DNA of 38,190 nt. Source: Alphaproteobacteria bacterium. Its GTDB lineage: Bacteria; Pseudomonadota; Alphaproteobacteria; Acetobacterales; Acetobacteraceae. The notes under the pieces were generated by a model. It did no database searches and had not been told where the DNA came from. It was given only the letters and a program-made list of their open reading frames with translations. The position numbers and the translations under genes are program-made. Shown here piece by piece: positions 1,488-10,061 of this stretch. The first letter of the stretch is position 1; every line of letters starts with the position of its first letter. The DNA lies in NCBI GenBank assembly GCA_026400845.1, contig JAPLOH010000053.1, positions 1-38,190 on the forward strand, read 5' to 3'.

Positions 1488-1572
1488 GTGTCATACTCCC
1501 TTGAGTTGCTCCGGCGATCGGCCGGCACATCCGCAACCTAGCGAGGGGCACCGAACGGGAAGCTGACGGCGC

Positions 1573-1616
1573 CTGTCAGCGTTCCGTCAGCGGGCTGTCA
1601 GGGATTTGTCAGCAAG
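1573..1616 (+). promoter_or_regulatory. Four 11-bp direct repeats, Pho-box/OmpR-family-like binding array
   Basis: Four contiguous 11-mers begin at 1573, 1584, 1595 and 1606. They read CTGTCAGCGTT, then CCGTCAGCGGG, then CTGTCAGGGAT, then TTGTCAGCAAG. GTCAG recurs at exactly 11-base intervals, one helical turn. An inverted copy (GCTGAC, 1562-1567) precedes them and forms a hairpin with 1575-1580. PhoB and its relatives bind direct repeats of (C)TGTCA with 11-bp period. The last two units overlap the 3' end of the isomerase gene. On the minus strand, a weak -10 (TAGGTT, 1540-1535) follows toward the peptide/barrel unit. The repeats read in the opposite direction to that unit, which is unusual for a Pho box. 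Confidence 0.55.
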
Positions 1617-2365
1617 CCGATGGCCCGGCGCAGCGCCGCATCGGTGTCCGCGGCGGGGCGGAATTCGAGGCCGATCGGGCCAGTATAGCCGAGCCCGGCG
1701 AGGGTTGCGCGCACATGAGCCCAGTCGATCGTGCCGCTGCCGGGCTCATGGCGGCCATTGGTGTCGGCGGCATGCACGTAGCCGACCCGGTCGCCGCGCC
1801 CGGCCAGCACCACGGCGGGGTCCTCGCCCATCATGGCGGAATGGTAGATGTCGTAGAGCAGGCGCACGGCAGGGGAGGCGACGGCATCGATGATGTCGAG
1901 CCCGTCCGCCGTGCGGTCGAGGAAGTAGCCGATGTGATCGCGCACGGTGTTGAGCGGCTCGAGCAGCAGGGTGATCCCGGCGGCCTCCGCGATGGGGGCG
2001 GCGGCGCGCAGGGCGGTGATCACCGCGTCGCGCTGCGCCGCGGCCGGTACGCCGGGCATTGTATCGCCCGAGAGCACGATGAGGCGTGTAGTGCCGAGCC
2101 GGGCCGCAATGGGGATTGTCTCGCGCAGGCCCTGGAGAAATTCGGCGTGCGTCGCCGGATCGACCAGCCGGCCGCCGGGCTCGACGCTGAACACCGCGAC
2201 CGGCAAGCCGCTCTCCCGGGAGGCGCGCGCGATAGCCTCGATGTCCTTGCCGCGCCAGCGCCAGAATTCGACCGCGCCAAGCCTTGCGTCGTGGCAGGCA
2301 TGGATGCGTGCGGGAAACGCCGCATGTTCGGCAAACAGCATCTCGATGCAGCCGGAGAGTGTCAT
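1598..2365 (-). CDS. Hydroxypyruvate isomerase-like TIM-barrel protein
   Basis: A 255-residue protein of the AP-endonuclease-2/xylose-isomerase-like TIM-barrel family, closest in motif pattern to hydroxypyruvate isomerase (Hyi/OtnI). The N-terminal strand reads MTLSGCIEMLF. Later come LLLEPLNT with GYFLDR, YDIYH, HAADTNGRHEPGSGTIDW and GLEFRP. The Glu of EPLN, Asp of YDIYH, His of VHAAD and Glu of LEFRP are the expected metal ligands. It would interconvert hydroxypyruvate and tartronate semialdehyde or a related short hydroxy-keto acid. I chose the ATG at 2365 because it matches the family N-terminus and has AAGGA six bases upstream. The same frame is open upstream to an ATG at 2503, adding a 46-residue basic extension described separately. 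Its 3' end overlaps the repeat array. Confidence 0.7.
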   Translation of the reverse strand: MTLSGCIEMLFAEHAAFPARIHACHDARLGAVEFWRWRGKDIEAIARASRESGLPVAVFSVEPGGRLVDPATHAEFLQGLRETIPIAARLGTTRLIVLSGDTMPGVPAAAQRDAVITALRAAAPIAEAAGITLLLEPLNTVRDHIGYFLDRTADGLDIIDAVASPAVRLLYDIYHSAMMGEDPAVVLAGRGDRVGYVHAADTNGRHEPGSGTIDWAHVRATLAGLGYTGPIGLEFRPAADTDAALRRAIGLLTNP

Positions 2366-2851: not shown

Positions 2852-4051
2852 TCACCGCGCCGGTTGTATCTCGGGCACGCGGTCGGCGGGTGGGGTGTTG
2901 CGGCTGCGGCCGCAGCGGATGATGCCGTCGATGATCATCATGCCGATGCCCGGCAGATCGCCCATGCGGACGGATTCGAGCAAATCCCCGCCGGCGGAGT
3001 GCTGGGCGCGGTCCATCAGCATGAAATCCGCCGCACGGCCGGGCTCGATCAGCCCGCTGTCGAGGCTGCGCATACGGGCAGTGTTGCCGGTAGCGAGGCA
3101 GAACGCCTCCTCTGCCGGCAGATCGCCGATCGAGGACATCAGGGCGATCATTCTGAGTATGCCGAGAGGCTGCACGCCGGAGCCCGCCGGGCTGTCGGTT
3201 CCAAGGATCACGCGGCCGAGCTGGTCCAGTTCCCGGGCGAAGCGCAGAGCGGTGAGGCCGGCGAGTTCGTTGCCGTTATGGACAATCTCTATGCCGCGCC
3301 CGCAACCCTCGCAGAGGCAGCGGATCTGACGTAGCGGGAGCGCGGTATGGCCACCGTTGATGTGCCCGATAATGTCAGCATCGGCCTCCAGCACAGTATC
3401 GGCGTCGATATAGCCGGAACCGGGGACCGAGGGACCGCCGGTGTGGATGGTGGACTGGATACCGTATTTACGCGCCCAGGCGACCATCTCCTTGGCCTCG
3501 TAGCCGGCCTTGACGGTGCCTAGCCCAACCTCGCCAAGCAAGCTTACACCGGCGGCGGCGAGCTCCGCGAAATCGCTCTCCACCATCCCCTTCTCGATAA
3601 CCGGGGCGCCGCCGAGAACCTTCACGCCTCCGGGGCGGAAGTTGTGATAGGCACGCTGTGCGGTGATGGCGAGCGCCTTGACGCCGATGATGTCGCGCGG
3701 TCGGCCGGGCAGATGCACCTCCCCGGCCGAGATCATGGTGGTCACCCCCCCATTGAGGCAGGAGTCGATCCAGCCGATCTGACCCTGCCGCGGCGTCCAA
3801 TCCCCGAACACAGGATGGACATGACTGTCGATCAGCCCTGGGGAGAGCGCGCAGCCATGGGCATCGATGCGGACCGTCGCGTCTGCGGTGTCGACATCCC
3901 CGCCGCGCCCGACTGCAACGATGCGGCCCCCCTCCGCGACGATGGTGTCGGCATCGAGGATCGGCCGCGCCAGATCACCGGACAGCATCAGCCCGATATT
4001 GGAAATCACCATCCGACCGGTCTGCCGTTCCGGTCCACCTGCCAGGCCCAT
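2852..4051 (-). CDS. Enamidase-type amidohydrolase
   Basis: A 399-residue metal-dependent amidohydrolase of the enamidase group. The characterised member opens the ring in anaerobic nicotinate degradation. Seen here: an N-terminal beta-sandwich part (IGLMLSGDLARPILDADTIV), the HxH metal motif in LSPGLIDSHVHPVFGD, a probable bridging residue region in LLGEVGLGTV, the metal-ligand histidine in STIHTGGPS, a second histidine region GHINGGHTA, and the catalytic Asp in GTDSPAGSG. The C-terminal sandwich reads IEPGRAADFMLMD. The ATG at 4051 is chosen for its GGAGG seven bases upstream; an internal ATG at 4012 matches the bare family start. No other nicotinate genes are nearby, so the true substrate may be another cyclic amide. 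It is flanked by an insertion-sequence remnant on one side and a palindrome on the other. Confidence 0.7.
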   Translation of the reverse strand: MGLAGGPERQTGRMVISNIGLMLSGDLARPILDADTIVAEGGRIVAVGRGGDVDTADATVRIDAHGCALSPGLIDSHVHPVFGDWTPRQGQIGWIDSCLNGGVTTMISAGEVHLPGRPRDIIGVKALAITAQRAYHNFRPGGVKVLGGAPVIEKGMVESDFAELAAAGVSLLGEVGLGTVKAGYEAKEMVAWARKYGIQSTIHTGGPSVPGSGYIDADTVLEADADIIGHINGGHTALPLRQIRCLCEGCGRGIEIVHNGNELAGLTALRFARELDQLGRVILGTDSPAGSGVQPLGILRMIALMSSIGDLPAEEAFCLATGNTARMRSLDSGLIEPGRAADFMLMDRAQHSAGGDLLESVRMGDLPGIGMMIIDGIIRCGRSRNTPPADRVPEIQPAR

Positions 4052-4092
4052 AGGTCGCCTCCGCACGAAATCACACTCCAAGATGGTGTGTG

Positions 4093-4114
4093 GTTCCTTT
4101 TTCAAAAAAAGGAC
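4093..4114. terminator. A/T-tract palindrome, likely terminator and partial copy of the 11.7-kb repeat
   Basis: The arms TCCTTTTT (4095-4102) and AAAAAGGA (4106-4113) form a stem with a three-base loop. It lies about 97 bases after the stop of the minus-strand transglycosylase and before the enamidase start. Read on the minus strand, it ends in a run of T followed by A, like an intrinsic terminator. The sequence GGTTCCTTTTT is close to GGTTCTTTTTTT in the element at 11707-11828, so the two probably belong to one dispersed repeat family. Confidence 0.5.
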
Positions 4115-4209
4115 AGATCCCTTCGGCACTCCCCGGGTCGGCCTGTGTGACTTCAGGTCATCGGGAATTCATCCCGCTTGTCACATCCCCTGACCGACCG
4201 GTCTCGCGA

Positions 4210-5117: not shown

Positions 5118-5918
5118 TCAGGCTCCGGGCCGGACCGCCATCAATTCGCGGTCGCCGGCGATGGCGTAGCCCTGGCCGCGCACCGAGACGATCACGCTGA
5201 GCGCGATGTCGTCGGCAAAGAGTTTGCGGCGCAGCCCGAGAATAAGCTGATCGACCCCGCGATCCTCAACATGGAAGGTGCGACGCAGCGCATGGCCGCA
5301 GATCTTCTCGCGCGACACCGGCTCGGGCATCGCCTCGACAAGCTGTTCAAGGGCGGCGAATTCCGCCGAGGTGAGGTGGATCGCCGCCTGCTGCGCGTTC
5401 ACCGCAATGCGGCGGCGCAGATCGACCCGGGTGCTGCCAAGCATGATCTCGGTGGCTTGCGCCGGCGGCGGCGAGGGTTCGGCGACGGCAGGCTGCGTCA
5501 TCGCGGCCCGCGCGGCACGACGATGCACGGCGCGGATGCGGGCGAGCAGTTCGCGCAGCGGCACCGGCTTGGTAACGTAGTCGTCGGCACCCTGCTCGAT
5601 GCCGACAATGCGCTCGATTTCGTCCGACCGGCCGGAGACGACGATCACGCCGCAATCATGCTGGGCGGCGAATCGCTTGACGAGTTGGCTGCCATCGACA
5701 TCCGGCAAGGTGAGATCGACCAGCACGATGTCCGGCCGCATGCTTTCCTTGAGTTGGATCGCCTCGGCACCGTTGCGCGCCCAACCGACCTTGATTCCGG
5801 CGCGCTCGATGTAGCGGCGGATGGTTGAGGCGACATCATGATCGTCCTCGACGAGCAGCACCGTCGGCTCCGCAAGGAGGTCCGAGTCGGGGGTCGCGGG
5901 GAGGCTGGTTGCACTCAT
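5118..5918 (-). CDS. OmpR/PhoB-family response regulator
   Basis: A 266-residue regulator. The receiver domain (about residues 18-135) has the acidic pair in VEDDHD (D25, D26), phosphoacceptor D68 in LVDLTLPD, the switch Ser in VVSGR (S95) and K117 in YVTKPVP, so it looks fully functional. A linker rich in Pro/Ala follows. The winged-helix effector (about residues 160-255) includes LTSAEFAALEQLVE, DRGVDQLILGLRRKL and SVRGQGYAI. It follows the hybrid kinase by 105 bases on the same strand and may be its partner or target. The ATG at 5918 has no good ribosome site, and the frame has no better start. The target genes are unknown. Confidence 0.85.
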   Translation of the reverse strand: MSATSLPATPDSDLLAEPTVLLVEDDHDVASTIRRYIERAGIKVGWARNGAEAIQLKESMRPDIVLVDLTLPDVDGSQLVKRFAAQHDCGVIVVSGRSDEIERIVGIEQGADDYVTKPVPLRELLARIRAVHRRAARAAMTQPAVAEPSPPPAQATEIMLGSTRVDLRRRIAVNAQQAAIHLTSAEFAALEQLVEAMPEPVSREKICGHALRRTFHVEDRGVDQLILGLRRKLFADDIALSVIVSVRGQGYAIAGDRELMAVRPGA

Positions 5919-6023: not shown

Positions 6024-8864
6024 TCAACGCACGTCTACGTTATCAAGCCGCGCGCGAACCATCGCCGCCAGGCTGGCGCGGCGGAACGGCTTCAGCAGCA
6101 GATTGACCTGCGGGTCGAGGCGCGATTTGTGGAGATCGATGTTCTCGACATAGCCCGACATGTAGACGACGGGCAGGCCGGGCATCCGGTGGAGCACCTG
6201 CTCGGCGACGATCAGCCCATCCATGCCGTTGGGCAGCAGCACGTCGGTCAGCAGCAGGTCGGGCCGGAGTCCGCCGTCGATCAGCGCCAACGCCTCGCCG
6301 CCATCCGGCGCGCTGACCACCTCATAGCCGAGGCTCGTCAACACGTTCTCGGTATAGCCGCGCACCATCTCTGAATCCTCGACGACCAGGATCCGCTCGC
6401 CATTGGCCTGTTGCATCGCCGGTTCCGCGGCCGGACGGGCGGGTACCGGTGCGGCGGGCAACGCCTCGAGCCGCGAGGTCTCCCCGAGCCCGGGCAGGTA
6501 AAGGCGCACCGTGGTGCCACGGCCCTCGTCGCTGACAATGCGGACATGGCCGCCGGACTGGGTGACATAGCCATAGACCATCGCCAGCCCGAGCCCGGTG
6601 CCACGCCCGGCCGGCTTGGTGGTGAAGAACGGCTCGAACACCTTGCCCAGCAGCTCCCGCGGGATGCCGGTGCCGTTGTCGGTAACCGAGACGACCACAT
6701 AGTTGCCGGGCCGCAGTTCGCCCCACTGGTCGACGTCGGTCTTGCGGATGACGATGTTGTTGGCATCGATCTTCAGCCGGCCGCCGCGGCCGGCCGGGAT
6801 CGCATCGCGGGCGTTGATCGCCAGGTTGACGATGGCGTTCTCGAGCTGGGTCGGGTCGACCCGGGCGCGCCACAGAGACGGCGCGCACTGGATTTCGAGC
6901 GTCACGCTGGTGCCGAGCGTACGGCGCAACAGGCCGTCGAGCCCAACGACAAGGCGGGAGACGTCAACCTCGCTGGGCGACAAGGGCTGGCGGCGGGCGA
7001 AGGCGAGCAATTGGTGCGTAAGCTCGGCCGCACTTTGCGCCGCACGACGGATCTGGTCGTGCATCTCGCGCGATTCGCCGGTTTCCGGCAGTTCGAAGTC
7101 GAGCATCTCGATATTGCCGAGGATGACGGTGAGGAGATTGTTGAAGTCATGCGCGATGCCGCCGGTGAGCCGCCCGATCGCTTCCATCTTGGCGGCCTGG
7201 CGCAGCTTGTCGTCGGTGGCGACCTGGCGGCTGATGTCCTGCAGGTAGACCACGATGCCGCCGGCGCGCGGATGCACGTGCACCATCAACCAGGTCTCGT
7301 TGCGCAGCCACTTCATCTCGAATTCGGTGAAATGCCGGCCGGCCAGCGCGCGGCGGCATTCGGTATCGAAGATCGTGCCGTCGAGCTCGGGGAACACATC
7401 CCAGATCGAACGTCCCTTGATGTCCTCGGCATACTCGCCGAACAGGCGATCGGCGTTGCGATTGCTGCTGATGAAACGCCACGCACCGTCCAGCGTGAAG
7501 GTCGCATCCGGCATTTCGAGCAGCACCGCCTCCATCCCGGTACGGTAGGTCTCGGCAGCGGCCTTGAGTTCGTCGATTGCCGACTCGGTCTGCGCGACAC
7601 GCCCGGCAGAGCCGACCTGGATCGCCCCGATGCGCGAGAGCACGGTGAGAAAGGTGAGATCAGCCACCGTGAAGCGGGAGCCGTCATGCTTGGTCAGCAC
7701 GTGCCAACCGACGAGAACGCGCTCTGCGCCCGGCAGGGTGAGCTCCGGTGGGCGTGCGTGTTGCGCCGCTGGGTCGGTGCCGGCGGGCACCTGGGTGCAG
7801 GCGAGCAGGTCACAGGCGAGTTCGACCACGCGGGTCTGCGTCGCCAGTGCATCGACGCCGCTGCGCATGTCCAGCGTCAGGCCGGCGAGGCGATCGAGTC
7901 GGTCACGTTCGCGCCGCTCGCAGGTCTTCACGGCGATGACGGCAAGCGCCATGAAAATCAGCACGATCATCGTCGAGCTGGCGATCAGCAGCGTGCGCGC
8001 CTGCCACACCGCGAGCGCATCCTCCGATGGGATCACCACGGCGACGACGGCGCCGAACGGCGCATCGATGCGTCTTGCCTCGGTGATGCTGCCGGTTGCG
8101 GCGTCGATCGTCATGCCGCGCAGAACAGCGTCCCAGTCCGGTAAGCGATACGCGGGGCCGGGGTTGGTGACGACCGGCCGGCTGCTGCTGATCAGCGCGA
8201 GGGGCCGAGTGTTTTCGTCGAGCAGTGCCATCACCGCGTGCTCGCCGATGCTGAGGTCGGCGAATTGCCCGGCGAGAAGGTCGGCCGCGATCACCGCAAG
8301 CACCGAGCCGCTGAAGCCGTCGCGGCGCAGGCCGCGGGCGATGCAGATGCCCCGCAGCGCGCCGGCGCCGGTCTGCTCGATGCTGAAGGCGCGCAGCGTT
8401 ACCTGTTCGGCGTCGGGCCGGTCGTCGCGCAGGCAGGCCGGCACGATGGTGCCGGAACGCGTCGCGGTGGTGGTGGAGCCCGCAACCACGCTACCGCCGG
8501 CATCGAGCAGATAAAGCGCGATCAGCCGGGGCTCGGCGCGCCGGCGCTGGGCGATCACCGTCTCCACCTGGTTGCGCCCGGCATCGGTGGCCACCGTGGC
8601 GGTCACCGCCTCCTCGACGGCGCGAACCGTGGCATCCATCCGCACGAACAAGTCGACCGTGCGTTGGCGGGCGATGTCGACGATGCCTTTGGCGGCGAGT
8701 GCCGCCTGCTGCTGGGCGCGCACCCGGTCGAGCACCACGGCGCCGGCCGAAATGGCGACGAGAGCGACAGTCACCACAACGGCAAGCAAGCAGACCGGGC
8801 AGGAAATCCCGGTCAATGCCTGCATGCGGCGACGCAGTGCGCTCGATGGATGCAACAGACTCAC
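6024..8864 (-). CDS. Hybrid sensor histidine kinase with C-terminal receiver (CckA-like layout)
   Basis: A 946-residue membrane kinase. A GTG start at 8864 is chosen because GAGG lies eight bases upstream. Domains in order: first membrane helix (about 24-45), an extracytoplasmic sensing region (about 46-290), second helix (about 291-312), a GAF-like stretch, a PAS domain (about 444-548), a HisKA dimerisation domain with H572 in GGIAHDFNN, an ATPase domain with N684 in NLAINARDA, DNGTGIP and GTGLGLAMVYG, and a receiver with phosphoacceptor D874 in LLLTDVLLP. The HDFNN kinase core plus a terminal receiver is the CckA-type order, but the large periplasmic sensor differs from CckA. It sits between the CtrA-like gene and an OmpR-type regulator, all on one strand. 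The signal it senses is unknown. Confidence 0.85.
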   Translation of the reverse strand: MSLLHPSSALRRRMQALTGISCPVCLLAVVVTVALVAISAGAVVLDRVRAQQQAALAAKGIVDIARQRTVDLFVRMDATVRAVEEAVTATVATDAGRNQVETVIAQRRRAEPRLIALYLLDAGGSVVAGSTTTATRSGTIVPACLRDDRPDAEQVTLRAFSIEQTGAGALRGICIARGLRRDGFSGSVLAVIAADLLAGQFADLSIGEHAVMALLDENTRPLALISSSRPVVTNPGPAYRLPDWDAVLRGMTIDAATGSITEARRIDAPFGAVVAVVIPSEDALAVWQARTLLIASSTMIVLIFMALAVIAVKTCERRERDRLDRLAGLTLDMRSGVDALATQTRVVELACDLLACTQVPAGTDPAAQHARPPELTLPGAERVLVGWHVLTKHDGSRFTVADLTFLTVLSRIGAIQVGSAGRVAQTESAIDELKAAAETYRTGMEAVLLEMPDATFTLDGAWRFISSNRNADRLFGEYAEDIKGRSIWDVFPELDGTIFDTECRRALAGRHFTEFEMKWLRNETWLMVHVHPRAGGIVVYLQDISRQVATDDKLRQAAKMEAIGRLTGGIAHDFNNLLTVILGNIEMLDFELPETGESREMHDQIRRAAQSAAELTHQLLAFARRQPLSPSEVDVSRLVVGLDGLLRRTLGTSVTLEIQCAPSLWRARVDPTQLENAIVNLAINARDAIPAGRGGRLKIDANNIVIRKTDVDQWGELRPGNYVVVSVTDNGTGIPRELLGKVFEPFFTTKPAGRGTGLGLAMVYGYVTQSGGHVRIVSDEGRGTTVRLYLPGLGETSRLEALPAAPVPARPAAEPAMQQANGERILVVEDSEMVRGYTENVLTSLGYEVVSAPDGGEALALIDGGLRPDLLLTDVLLPNGMDGLIVAEQVLHRMPGLPVVYMSGYVENIDLHKSRLDPQVNLLLKPFRRASLAAMVRARLDNVDVR

Positions 8865-9014
8865 GGGAGGTTCCTCTTCTGACTGCGTATTATTGCGCAA
8901 TCATCAGGGTGACACAATATGGCCATCCGCCCGGACATGGCGAACCCTGATCGACTCCGGGTCTTGGCGTCGCTCCGGGCTTTGCGGTGGCGCAGCACCC
9001 GGCCCGGCCCGCGC

Positions 9015-9758
9015 CTAGACGGCGACGCGGAACGGAACAGGCTGGTGGGCAACGCGGGGCATCGCCACCACTTCGGCCGGCACGTCGGCGAGGTCGCGCA
9101 TGATGTAGCCGTGGCCGCGAACGGTATCGATGAGGTTGCCGAAGCCCCAGTTGGACAGCTTCTTGCGCAGGTTGCAGATGAACACGTCGATCACCCTGGT
9201 CTCCGGGCCGTCGAGCCCGGTGTAGAGATGGTCAAGGAAGTTCTGCTTCGGGATCACGCGGCCCTTGCGCAGCGCCATCAGTTCGAGGATCGCGTATTCC
9301 TTGCGGGTCACCGCGAGCGGCTGGTCGTCGATGCGAACCTCGCGGCTGGCCATGTCGATCTCGAGCGGGCCGACGCGCAGGACGGAGCGGGCGAAGCCGT
9401 TGCGGCGGCGAACCACCGCCTCGACGCGGGCCGCGAACTCCTCGGAGTCATAGGGCTTGGAGAGCAGGTCGTCGGCGCCGGCGCGCAGCGCCTGGGCACG
9501 GGACCGGCCCGAGGTGTAGTCCACCAGCATCAGCACCGGGGTGTTGAAGCCTTGGGCGCGGAAGCGGCGCAGCGCATCCCCACCGTCACCGTCGGCGAGC
9601 GCGCGGTCGAGCACCACGATGTCGTATTCATAGGTCTGGAGATACATCAGCGCATCACGGCCGGTGCGAACATGGTCGACGATGCCGCCGGCTTCACCCA
9701 GCAGGGCGATGGTGGCTTTGGCTTCGGCGCTGTGGCCTTGGGCAAGGAGGATACGCAT
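9015..9758 (-). CDS. CtrA-like regulator with degenerate receiver pocket
   Basis: A 247-residue OmpR-class regulator. Its DNA-binding half closely follows CtrA: VTRKEYAILELMALRKG, then HLYTGLDGPETRVIDVF with ICNLRKKL, and a GHGYIM end. The receiver starts MRILLAQGHS, where CtrA has acidic residues at positions 7-9 (Glu-Asp-Asp); here they are Gln-Gly-His. The phosphoacceptor position is kept (D51 in VVLDRALAD), as is the Lys in LLSKPY. The switch Ser/Thr is replaced, with Val in MLVDY. Loss of the Mg-binding acids suggests it does not take phosphate normally. A 25-residue tail after the winged helix is extra. Start 9758 gives the family N-terminus with GGGA eight bases upstream; an ATG at 9767 is possible. 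It is likely a paralogue and not the master CtrA. Confidence 0.75.
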   Translation of the reverse strand: MRILLAQGHSAEAKATIALLGEAGGIVDHVRTGRDALMYLQTYEYDIVVLDRALADGDGGDALRRFRAQGFNTPVLMLVDYTSGRSRAQALRAGADDLLSKPYDSEEFAARVEAVVRRRNGFARSVLRVGPLEIDMASREVRIDDQPLAVTRKEYAILELMALRKGRVIPKQNFLDHLYTGLDGPETRVIDVFICNLRKKLSNWGFGNLIDTVRGHGYIMRDLADVPAEVVAMPRVAHQPVPFRVAV

Positions 9759-10061
9759 TTCTGTCATCCCAACGAACTGGTTTCCGTGAGATGAATAAAC
9801 GCACAGCTTCACCACGATTGCCCGTCGAGAACTGTCAAATATTGTTCGAATCTCCGACACCCCCAAGGGATTCCCCTACACTGGCGAGAGTCTCGCCGAT
9901 TTGGATGCCCCAGCCTGACAATCCGCCGCTTCCACCAACCGCTCCTGTACCGTGCCAGGCAGACAAATACCCCGAATTGGTAAACACCATCTTAACAGCA
10001 AACCGCCTACCGACAGGCATCGAGGCCGCCATCCGGTCTCTCCCAGCAGTCGGAAGGCAAG
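9759..10061. other. Intergenic region between divergent CtrA-like and GT39 genes
   Basis: No protein is supported in this gap. It holds a consensus -35 hexamer read on the minus strand (TTGACA, 9838-9833) without a convincing -10 at normal spacing. It also has a perfect 7-bp-arm palindrome GGCGAGAGTCTCGCC (9883-9897) and a near-CtrA box at 9981-9996. The gap is more A/T-rich than the flanking genes and must carry promoters for both directions. Confidence 0.5.
9981..9996 (+). promoter_or_regulatory. Near-consensus CtrA box
   Basis: TAAA, seven bases, then TTAAC. The CtrA consensus is TTAA-N7-TTAAC, so there is one mismatch. It lies 66 bases before the glycosyltransferase start and about 220 bases upstream of the CtrA-like gene, whose recognition helix region resembles CtrA. 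It could serve autoregulation or control of the glycosyltransferase. A one-mismatch site can occur by chance, but the position is suggestive. Confidence 0.35.

Follow-up and report, generated by a model that had tools for sequence, protein, structure and literature searches.

The closest described counterparts of the array reported here are the binding sites of CenR, a cell-envelope regulator of R. sphaeroides and other Alphaproteobacteria. According to the excerpted text of PMC9275681, CenR has the consensus TGA-N8-TGA; of 31 sites, 28 face the gene from a position upstream of the -35 element, and 29 of the 31 targets are classed with the cell envelope, with transport or with extracytoplasmic proteins. 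CenR of S. meliloti is SMc03820 (684 bp), and its site is given in inverted-repeat form in the excerpts of PMC9561847. A further counterpart comes from Brucella, where BvrR, the orthologue of ChvI, regulates outer-membrane proteins; upstream of omp25 it protects a box of TGTCA repeats, the footprinted box 2, which contains TGTCACCCCTGTCAGCG (PMC10538546, excerpts). Pho boxes offer a third comparison, and the genome studied here has one of its own: PstS is encoded at C187, and its gene is preceded by a gene-facing, three-unit box, CTGTCAC-AAAT-CCTTCAT-CGAT-CTGTCAT.

In the window, by which we mean the whole 38,190-nucleotide stretch of DNA analysed, GTCAG occurs on the + strand at 1575-1579, 1586-1590, 1597-1601 and 1608-1612, in steps of exactly 11 bp (Table 1). 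These positions, and the unit starts CTGTCAG, CCGTCAG, CTGTCAG and TTGTCAG, are those given by an earlier, sequence-only reading, which had likened the repeats to Pho boxes. Because TGTCA and TGACA differ only at the middle base, the same DNA is a CTGACA array when read on the - strand, where the units CTGACA, CTGACA, CTGACG and CTGACA are separated by AATCC, GCCCG and GAACG. As a CTGACA-type array, on the gene strand, it points toward the peptide/barrel unit; in the TGTCAG form, on the + strand, it faces away, a problem that the earlier reading had rightly raised. An overlap with the isomerase gene had also been correctly described: two of the four units are carried by the end of that gene, the first lying in its 3′ end and the second containing its stop codon (1598-1600).

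Table 1. Features of the array locus, in window coordinates (G001 is the genome of the sister species).
Feature	Position	Strand	Remarks
Outer-membrane porin-like barrel gene, 370 aa	152..1264	-	Predicted structure, PDB matches
Secreted-type peptide gene, 67 aa	1284..1487	-	Downstream of the array; 87% identity over 61 aa in G001
Candidate -10 element TAGGTT	1535..1540	-	Within CTAGGTTGCGG (1541-1531); phased with the array at 11 bp
Inverted repeat GCTGACGG (1591-1584) ... CCGTCAGC (1569-1562)	1562..1591	-	Spans the final two units; may form an RNA hairpin
Operator-like tandem array	1573..1612	-	CTGACA-N5-CTGACA-N5-CTGACG-N5-CTGACA, 11-bp period
Hydroxypyruvate-isomerase-like TIM barrel gene	1598..2365	-	Below the NCBIfam family cut-offs

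The array is real and non-random, its regularity lying far beyond that of shuffled or simulated DNA. Three consecutive matches to GTCAGN6GTCAG occur there; 100 shuffles gave 0.05 on average. When the window was scanned for 5-mers occurring four or more times with constant spacing (period 7-30), the array was accompanied by one GCGCG array (33542, period 20); 60 order-2 Markov simulations of the window gave a mean of 0.05 such arrays (maximum 2), and a four-copy 5-mer array with a period of 10 or 11 was found in none of the 60. Over the whole genome (5,398,449 bases), GTCAGN6GTCAG is found in seven places, three of them at the array, and a reversed-pattern control in two. The longer pattern TGACN7TGACN7TGAC is found across the 5.4 Mb at the array only, in two overlapping matches, with none for its reversed control.

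Downstream of the array, the barrel protein has no family in Pfam or NCBIfam, but its assignment as an outer-membrane barrel is well supported because its predicted structure (mean pLDDT 74, 7 sequences) has solved porins as its best PDB matches. The secreted-type peptide had no match in Pfam. For the isomerase gene we took the start at 2365; the longest ORF begins at 2503. In the sister species the barrel is followed by genes for a class-I glutamine amidotransferase and for a HutD-like protein; the contig of the window's genome stops at window position 1. Comparison of 152-2510 with locus L062 showed that the isomerase, the peptide and the barrel are kept together in two species and that the genes beyond the isomerase differ, with an amidohydrolase-family gene in the window (2852-4129) and, in G001, an ORF resembling a branched-chain amino-acid binding protein (named by eye).

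Among 100 genomes, the window's own (G000) included, the barrel has matches at E 1e-3 or better in 11, yet a close orthologue, 85% identical, occurs in G001 only; the other matches reach 28-39% identity over parts. Isomerase-like genes are found in 29 of 40 genomes, and here too the close one is that of G001 (91%, the others 43% or less). At the DNA level the locus matches 13 of the 100 genomes, but beyond G000 and G001, which agree at 95% over 239 bases, these matches are stretches of 25-62 bases at 40-45 bits. Between these two genomes, 6 of the 110 positions of the intergenic region (1488-1597) differ. Four-fold sites diverge more, at 30 of 151 in the isomerase gene and 64 of 208 in the barrel gene, which marks the promoter region as constrained. 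Over the last 25 isomerase codons, one of 15 four-fold sites differs. The array itself is kept no better than the intergenic region around it: two of the six changes hit the unit at 1595-1601 (CTGACA to CTGAAC on the gene strand), the TGA of which is also the isomerase stop codon. This is the sole altered unit, and all spacings are preserved. The comparison of orthologous loci that the sequence-only reading had proposed can thus draw on one relative that has the locus, where the outcome is mixed: the 11-bp phase is upheld and one of the four units is not. Farther afield, peptide homologues beside the distant barrels amount to weak short matches (E 0.57 or worse), and the 300-bp upstream regions of seven distant barrel homologues, two of them with approximate start positions, contain no CenR-type word scoring above 10 and no Pho-type word matching 11 of 14 positions.

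The array ends 32 bp upstream of the candidate -10 element TAGGTT, and the gaps from its units to this element are 32, 43, 54 and 65 bp. CTAGGTT occurs once in the window, and TAGGTT is identical in G001. No -35 element is recognisable, and a sigma-70 scan of 1200-1800 had no match. The same class of element is seen at pstS promoters of relatives, where Pho boxes are often followed by a TAGG or TAGA element, as in CTAGGTTCCG. We compared 30 listed pstS loci, 28 from the host family and 2 from the host class, out of matches in 40 of 60 genomes. The gap between the best Pho box and the TAG has a common remainder modulo 11 in 16 of 23 family pstS promoters, the genome's own included, and the phase between array and TAGGTT equals that of these 16, although TAGGTT was chosen by eye and a lucky phase match has a chance of about 1 in 11. 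A fixed phase of the Pho box to a TAGG/TAGA-type -10 may be a family-wide promoter rule. In the same 30 loci, Pho boxes often consist of three 11-bp units.

The best reading of the array, and one we consider rather probable, is that of a tandem operator for an activator of the OmpR/PhoB family that controls the peptide-porin unit. Its half-sites stand head to tail, one helical turn apart, which is the arrangement expected of tandem operators in this family. One or two dimers of an OmpR/PhoB-family response regulator would bind head to tail on a single face of the helix, immediately before the -35 region, and would activate a promoter that has TAGGTT (1540-1535) as its -10. This promoter would drive the secreted-peptide and porin genes and perhaps also the glutamine-amidotransferase and HutD-like genes that come next in the sister species. 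Binding of a protein at the array, the family to which it belongs and activation are all three inferred by us from the DNA. Of the original Pho-box proposal, the part that finds support is an OmpR/PhoB-type tandem operator before the peptide/barrel genes, with which the 11-bp phase, the uniqueness, the phased -10-like element and the conserved intergenic region all agree.

As for the regulator, CenR is the most plausible named binder, though we put this forward tentatively. The gene strand of the array holds three overlapping instances of TGA-N8-TGA pointing toward the gene. With a matrix built from the 31 published sites (excerpts of PMC9275681), the array occupies ranks 1, 8 and 54 of the 76,352 window positions, TGACAAATCCCTGAC (1611, minus strand) coming first with 13.3 and TGACGGAACGCTGAC (1589) eighth with 10.9; both lie within the range of those published sites (0.6-16.4, median about 11.9). 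The corresponding scores in G001 are 12.9 and 10.9. The genome encodes such a regulator: the gene at C152 is well supported as cenR, since it is the best match of both reference regulators, with 59.8% identity to that of Cereibacter, by far the best match, and 55.7% to the product of the 684-bp regulator gene of S. meliloti Ak57 (among 14 OmpR-family genes sampled). The published cenR site, ACACGAGCGCGTGAG, recurs without any change 85 bp upstream of the Cereibacter gene. Like the sites described in R. sphaeroides and other Alphaproteobacteria (excerpts of PMC9275681 and PMC9561847), the array shows TGA-N8-TGA with an 11-bp step, faces the gene and precedes what is likely to be the promoter of an envelope gene. 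It differs from them in having four units instead of two and in its second half-site, which reads CTGAC where GTGA is commoner.

The family's own CenR sites make this a candidacy and not an assignment. Among the 14 OmpR-family genes sampled, gene-facing CenR-type sites scoring above 9 occur only upstream of C152 and of its paralogues C55 (weakly, 9.2) and C108. The C108 paralogue (44018-44420, L128) appears to be frameshifted and has two strong CenR-type sites upstream, 35 bp apart. We scanned 29 family cenR genes, the genome's own included (30 listed loci, one of which has no upstream DNA, from matches in 41 of 60 genomes), and 20 have a CenR-type site above 9.5, compared with 12 of 246 background windows. 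These sites are mostly of the form TCRC-N7-GTGA, unlike the TGAC...TGAC of the array. We then scored the array with a family matrix of 22 hand-picked sites, two of them from the broken paralogue C108, which is not independent of the published matrix since its sites were selected with it. On the gene strand the array reached 7.1 (rank 24), against 11.4-20.1 for the training sites, and its best word, TCAGGGATTTGTCAG, lies on the other strand (10.2, rank 5). The genome's own tolQ has no CenR-type site above 9.5 within 900 bp, and in the family a gene-facing site was found at tolQ in 3 of the 16 genomes scanned (28 of 30 listed loci, two below the family cut-off being omitted). The divergent family sites and the siteless tolQ are what keep CenR a candidate.

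Among the other OmpR/PhoB-family regulators, PhoB is the one the sequence-only reading had put first: it would bind the array as two back-to-back Pho boxes, reversed, and place the peptide and the porin in the phosphate regulon, a reading that we regard as unlikely. The genome does encode PhoB (C35:3491-4159, 333 bits, above the family cut-off). On the + strand, 1573-1612, the array consists of (C)TGTCA direct repeats at 11 bp that match 11 of 14 Pho consensus positions, and the TCA core of family boxes is present in all four units. As at the genome's own pstS, these repeats of the TGTCA word come in multiple units phased with a -10, and the helical phase is that of most pstS promoters. Moreover, with a matrix from 28 hand-picked pstS boxes, which include overlapping boxes of one promoter and omit several weak matches, the array comes first and second among the 76,346 window positions.

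These two scores, however, are 12.7 and 10.7, far below the 21.1-32.4 that the 28 family boxes reach on their own matrix. The array carries a G at position 7 in every unit, where the 28 family boxes have T or C. The spacers CGTT, CGGG and GGAT are richer in G/C than those of most family boxes, one of which does have CGGG. Orientation also argues against PhoB. A box-like match of 10/14 or better was found in 26 of the 30 pstS upstream regions, and the best match faces the gene in 24 of these (in the other two, gene-facing and opposite matches tie), while the array in its Pho reading is reversed. In G001, one of the two boxes drops from 10.7 to 3.3. A canonical Pho box is ruled out by orientation and by scores below the family range. 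The wrong orientation, the low scores and the drop in G001 together make PhoB unlikely as the activator of the peptide/barrel unit, although weak or opposite-direction binding of PhoB to the array could occur. Thus the claim that these are phosphate-limitation genes under a Pho box finds no support. Elsewhere in the genome, two divergent genes are separated by a Pho-like box, CTGCCATCGATCTGTCAC (C101, L088:2721-2738). By eye, their products resemble a thiolase and a polyhydroxybutyrate depolymerase; for the depolymerase-like protein, the first 200 aa had no match in Pfam.

Binding by ChvI we hold to be just as improbable as binding by PhoB. The regulator encoded at C291 looks by eye like ChvI; it is followed by what looks, again by eye, like a ChvG-type kinase. 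Its protein shares with the PhoB recognition helix the residues R-T-(V/I)-D-x-H-I-x-R, presumably at base-contact positions. ChvI has to be considered because BvrR of Brucella protects TGTCACCCCTGTCAGCG at omp25; like the array, box 2 consists of direct repeats of TGTCA, includes CTGTCAGCG and belongs to a gene for an outer-membrane protein (excerpts of PMC10538546). However, box 2 has a period of 9 bp, not 11, and overlaps the transcription start, whereas the array sits upstream of the likely promoter. The S. meliloti motif N-GCC-N8-GCC, as given in the excerpts of PMC9731502, is absent from the array and occurs once nearby (1526-1513), which rules it out as the identity of the array; a ChvI motif of Caulobacter, TTGC-N3-GCAA (from excerpts), has no match within 1481-1680 and is rejected as well. 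Nor is there a CTGAC array upstream of C291. Indeed, among all 14 OmpR-family regulator genes sampled no such array was found upstream, save for one near match 395 bp upstream of the regulator at 5118-5918. That regulator, which the sequence-only reading had offered as an alternative binder, is matched in 26 of 40 genomes and has close orthologues in G001 (86%), G003 (73%) and G004 (70%); since the last two, which belong to the same genus, have no barrel, its distribution does not single it out. A second OmpR-family regulator of the window (9015-9866, - strand), by eye similar to a CtrA paralogue (compare C325), has a large hybrid histidine kinase close by (6024-8900). Besides CenR, the binder could be ChvI, PhoB or a further one of the 14 OmpR-family members sampled.

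Less probable still is the explanation that the feature belongs to RNA, a hairpin with stop codons in every frame where the isomerase gene ends, to which the repeats would be incidental. The 8-bp inverted repeat GCTGACGG/CCGTCAGC has a folding z of -2.4 (1555-1590; -1.8 for the 76 bases of 1545-1620), G001 is predicted to form the same stem of 8 bp (z -2.3), and the frames of the four TGA words are 2, 0, 1 and 2. Against this, the stretch 1487-1600 folds as by chance (z -0.39), Rfam gave no match at E 1 or better, and no terminator was called on the - strand between 1200 and 1800, where the sole terminator-like site of the scan lies at 1288 on the + strand, and none by the array; the phase with the -10 would also be left unexplained. 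In a separate observation, an intergenic stretch of C175 (L090:3620-3790, about 33.6 kb) is rich in TGACATT/AATGTCA words, including CTGACATTCGCCTGACA; it surrounds a terminator-like hairpin and lies upstream of an ORF of about 50 aa.

Equally improbable is a chance array or functionless relic in a conserved promoter region, for which speak the unit altered in G001 and the lack of a second three-unit copy in the genome, and therefore of a visible regulon, but which is opposed by the very small chance in shuffles and simulations, the spacing preserved in G001 and the phase with the -10-like element.

If the array is, as we favour, the operator of an OmpR/PhoB-family activator, a lineage-specific secreted peptide and porin would be tied to an envelope-type signalling pathway and not to phosphate supply, and the locus would offer a clean test case for where tandem sites of this family are placed relative to the promoter. 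A more specific version, which we think doubtful, is that the lineage's OmpR/PhoB-family regulator uses a four-unit CTGACA operator equivalent to a Pho-box array with each half-site reversed, on the helical face and with the promoter type that PhoB uses at pstS. Were it true, binding polarity would be reversible with promoter geometry kept, and the operator would be one dedicated to a recently acquired peptide-porin cassette. Two by-products are perhaps more useful: the fixed phase to the -10 that most Pho boxes keep at pstS in this family, and the CenR-type sites at many of its cenR genes.
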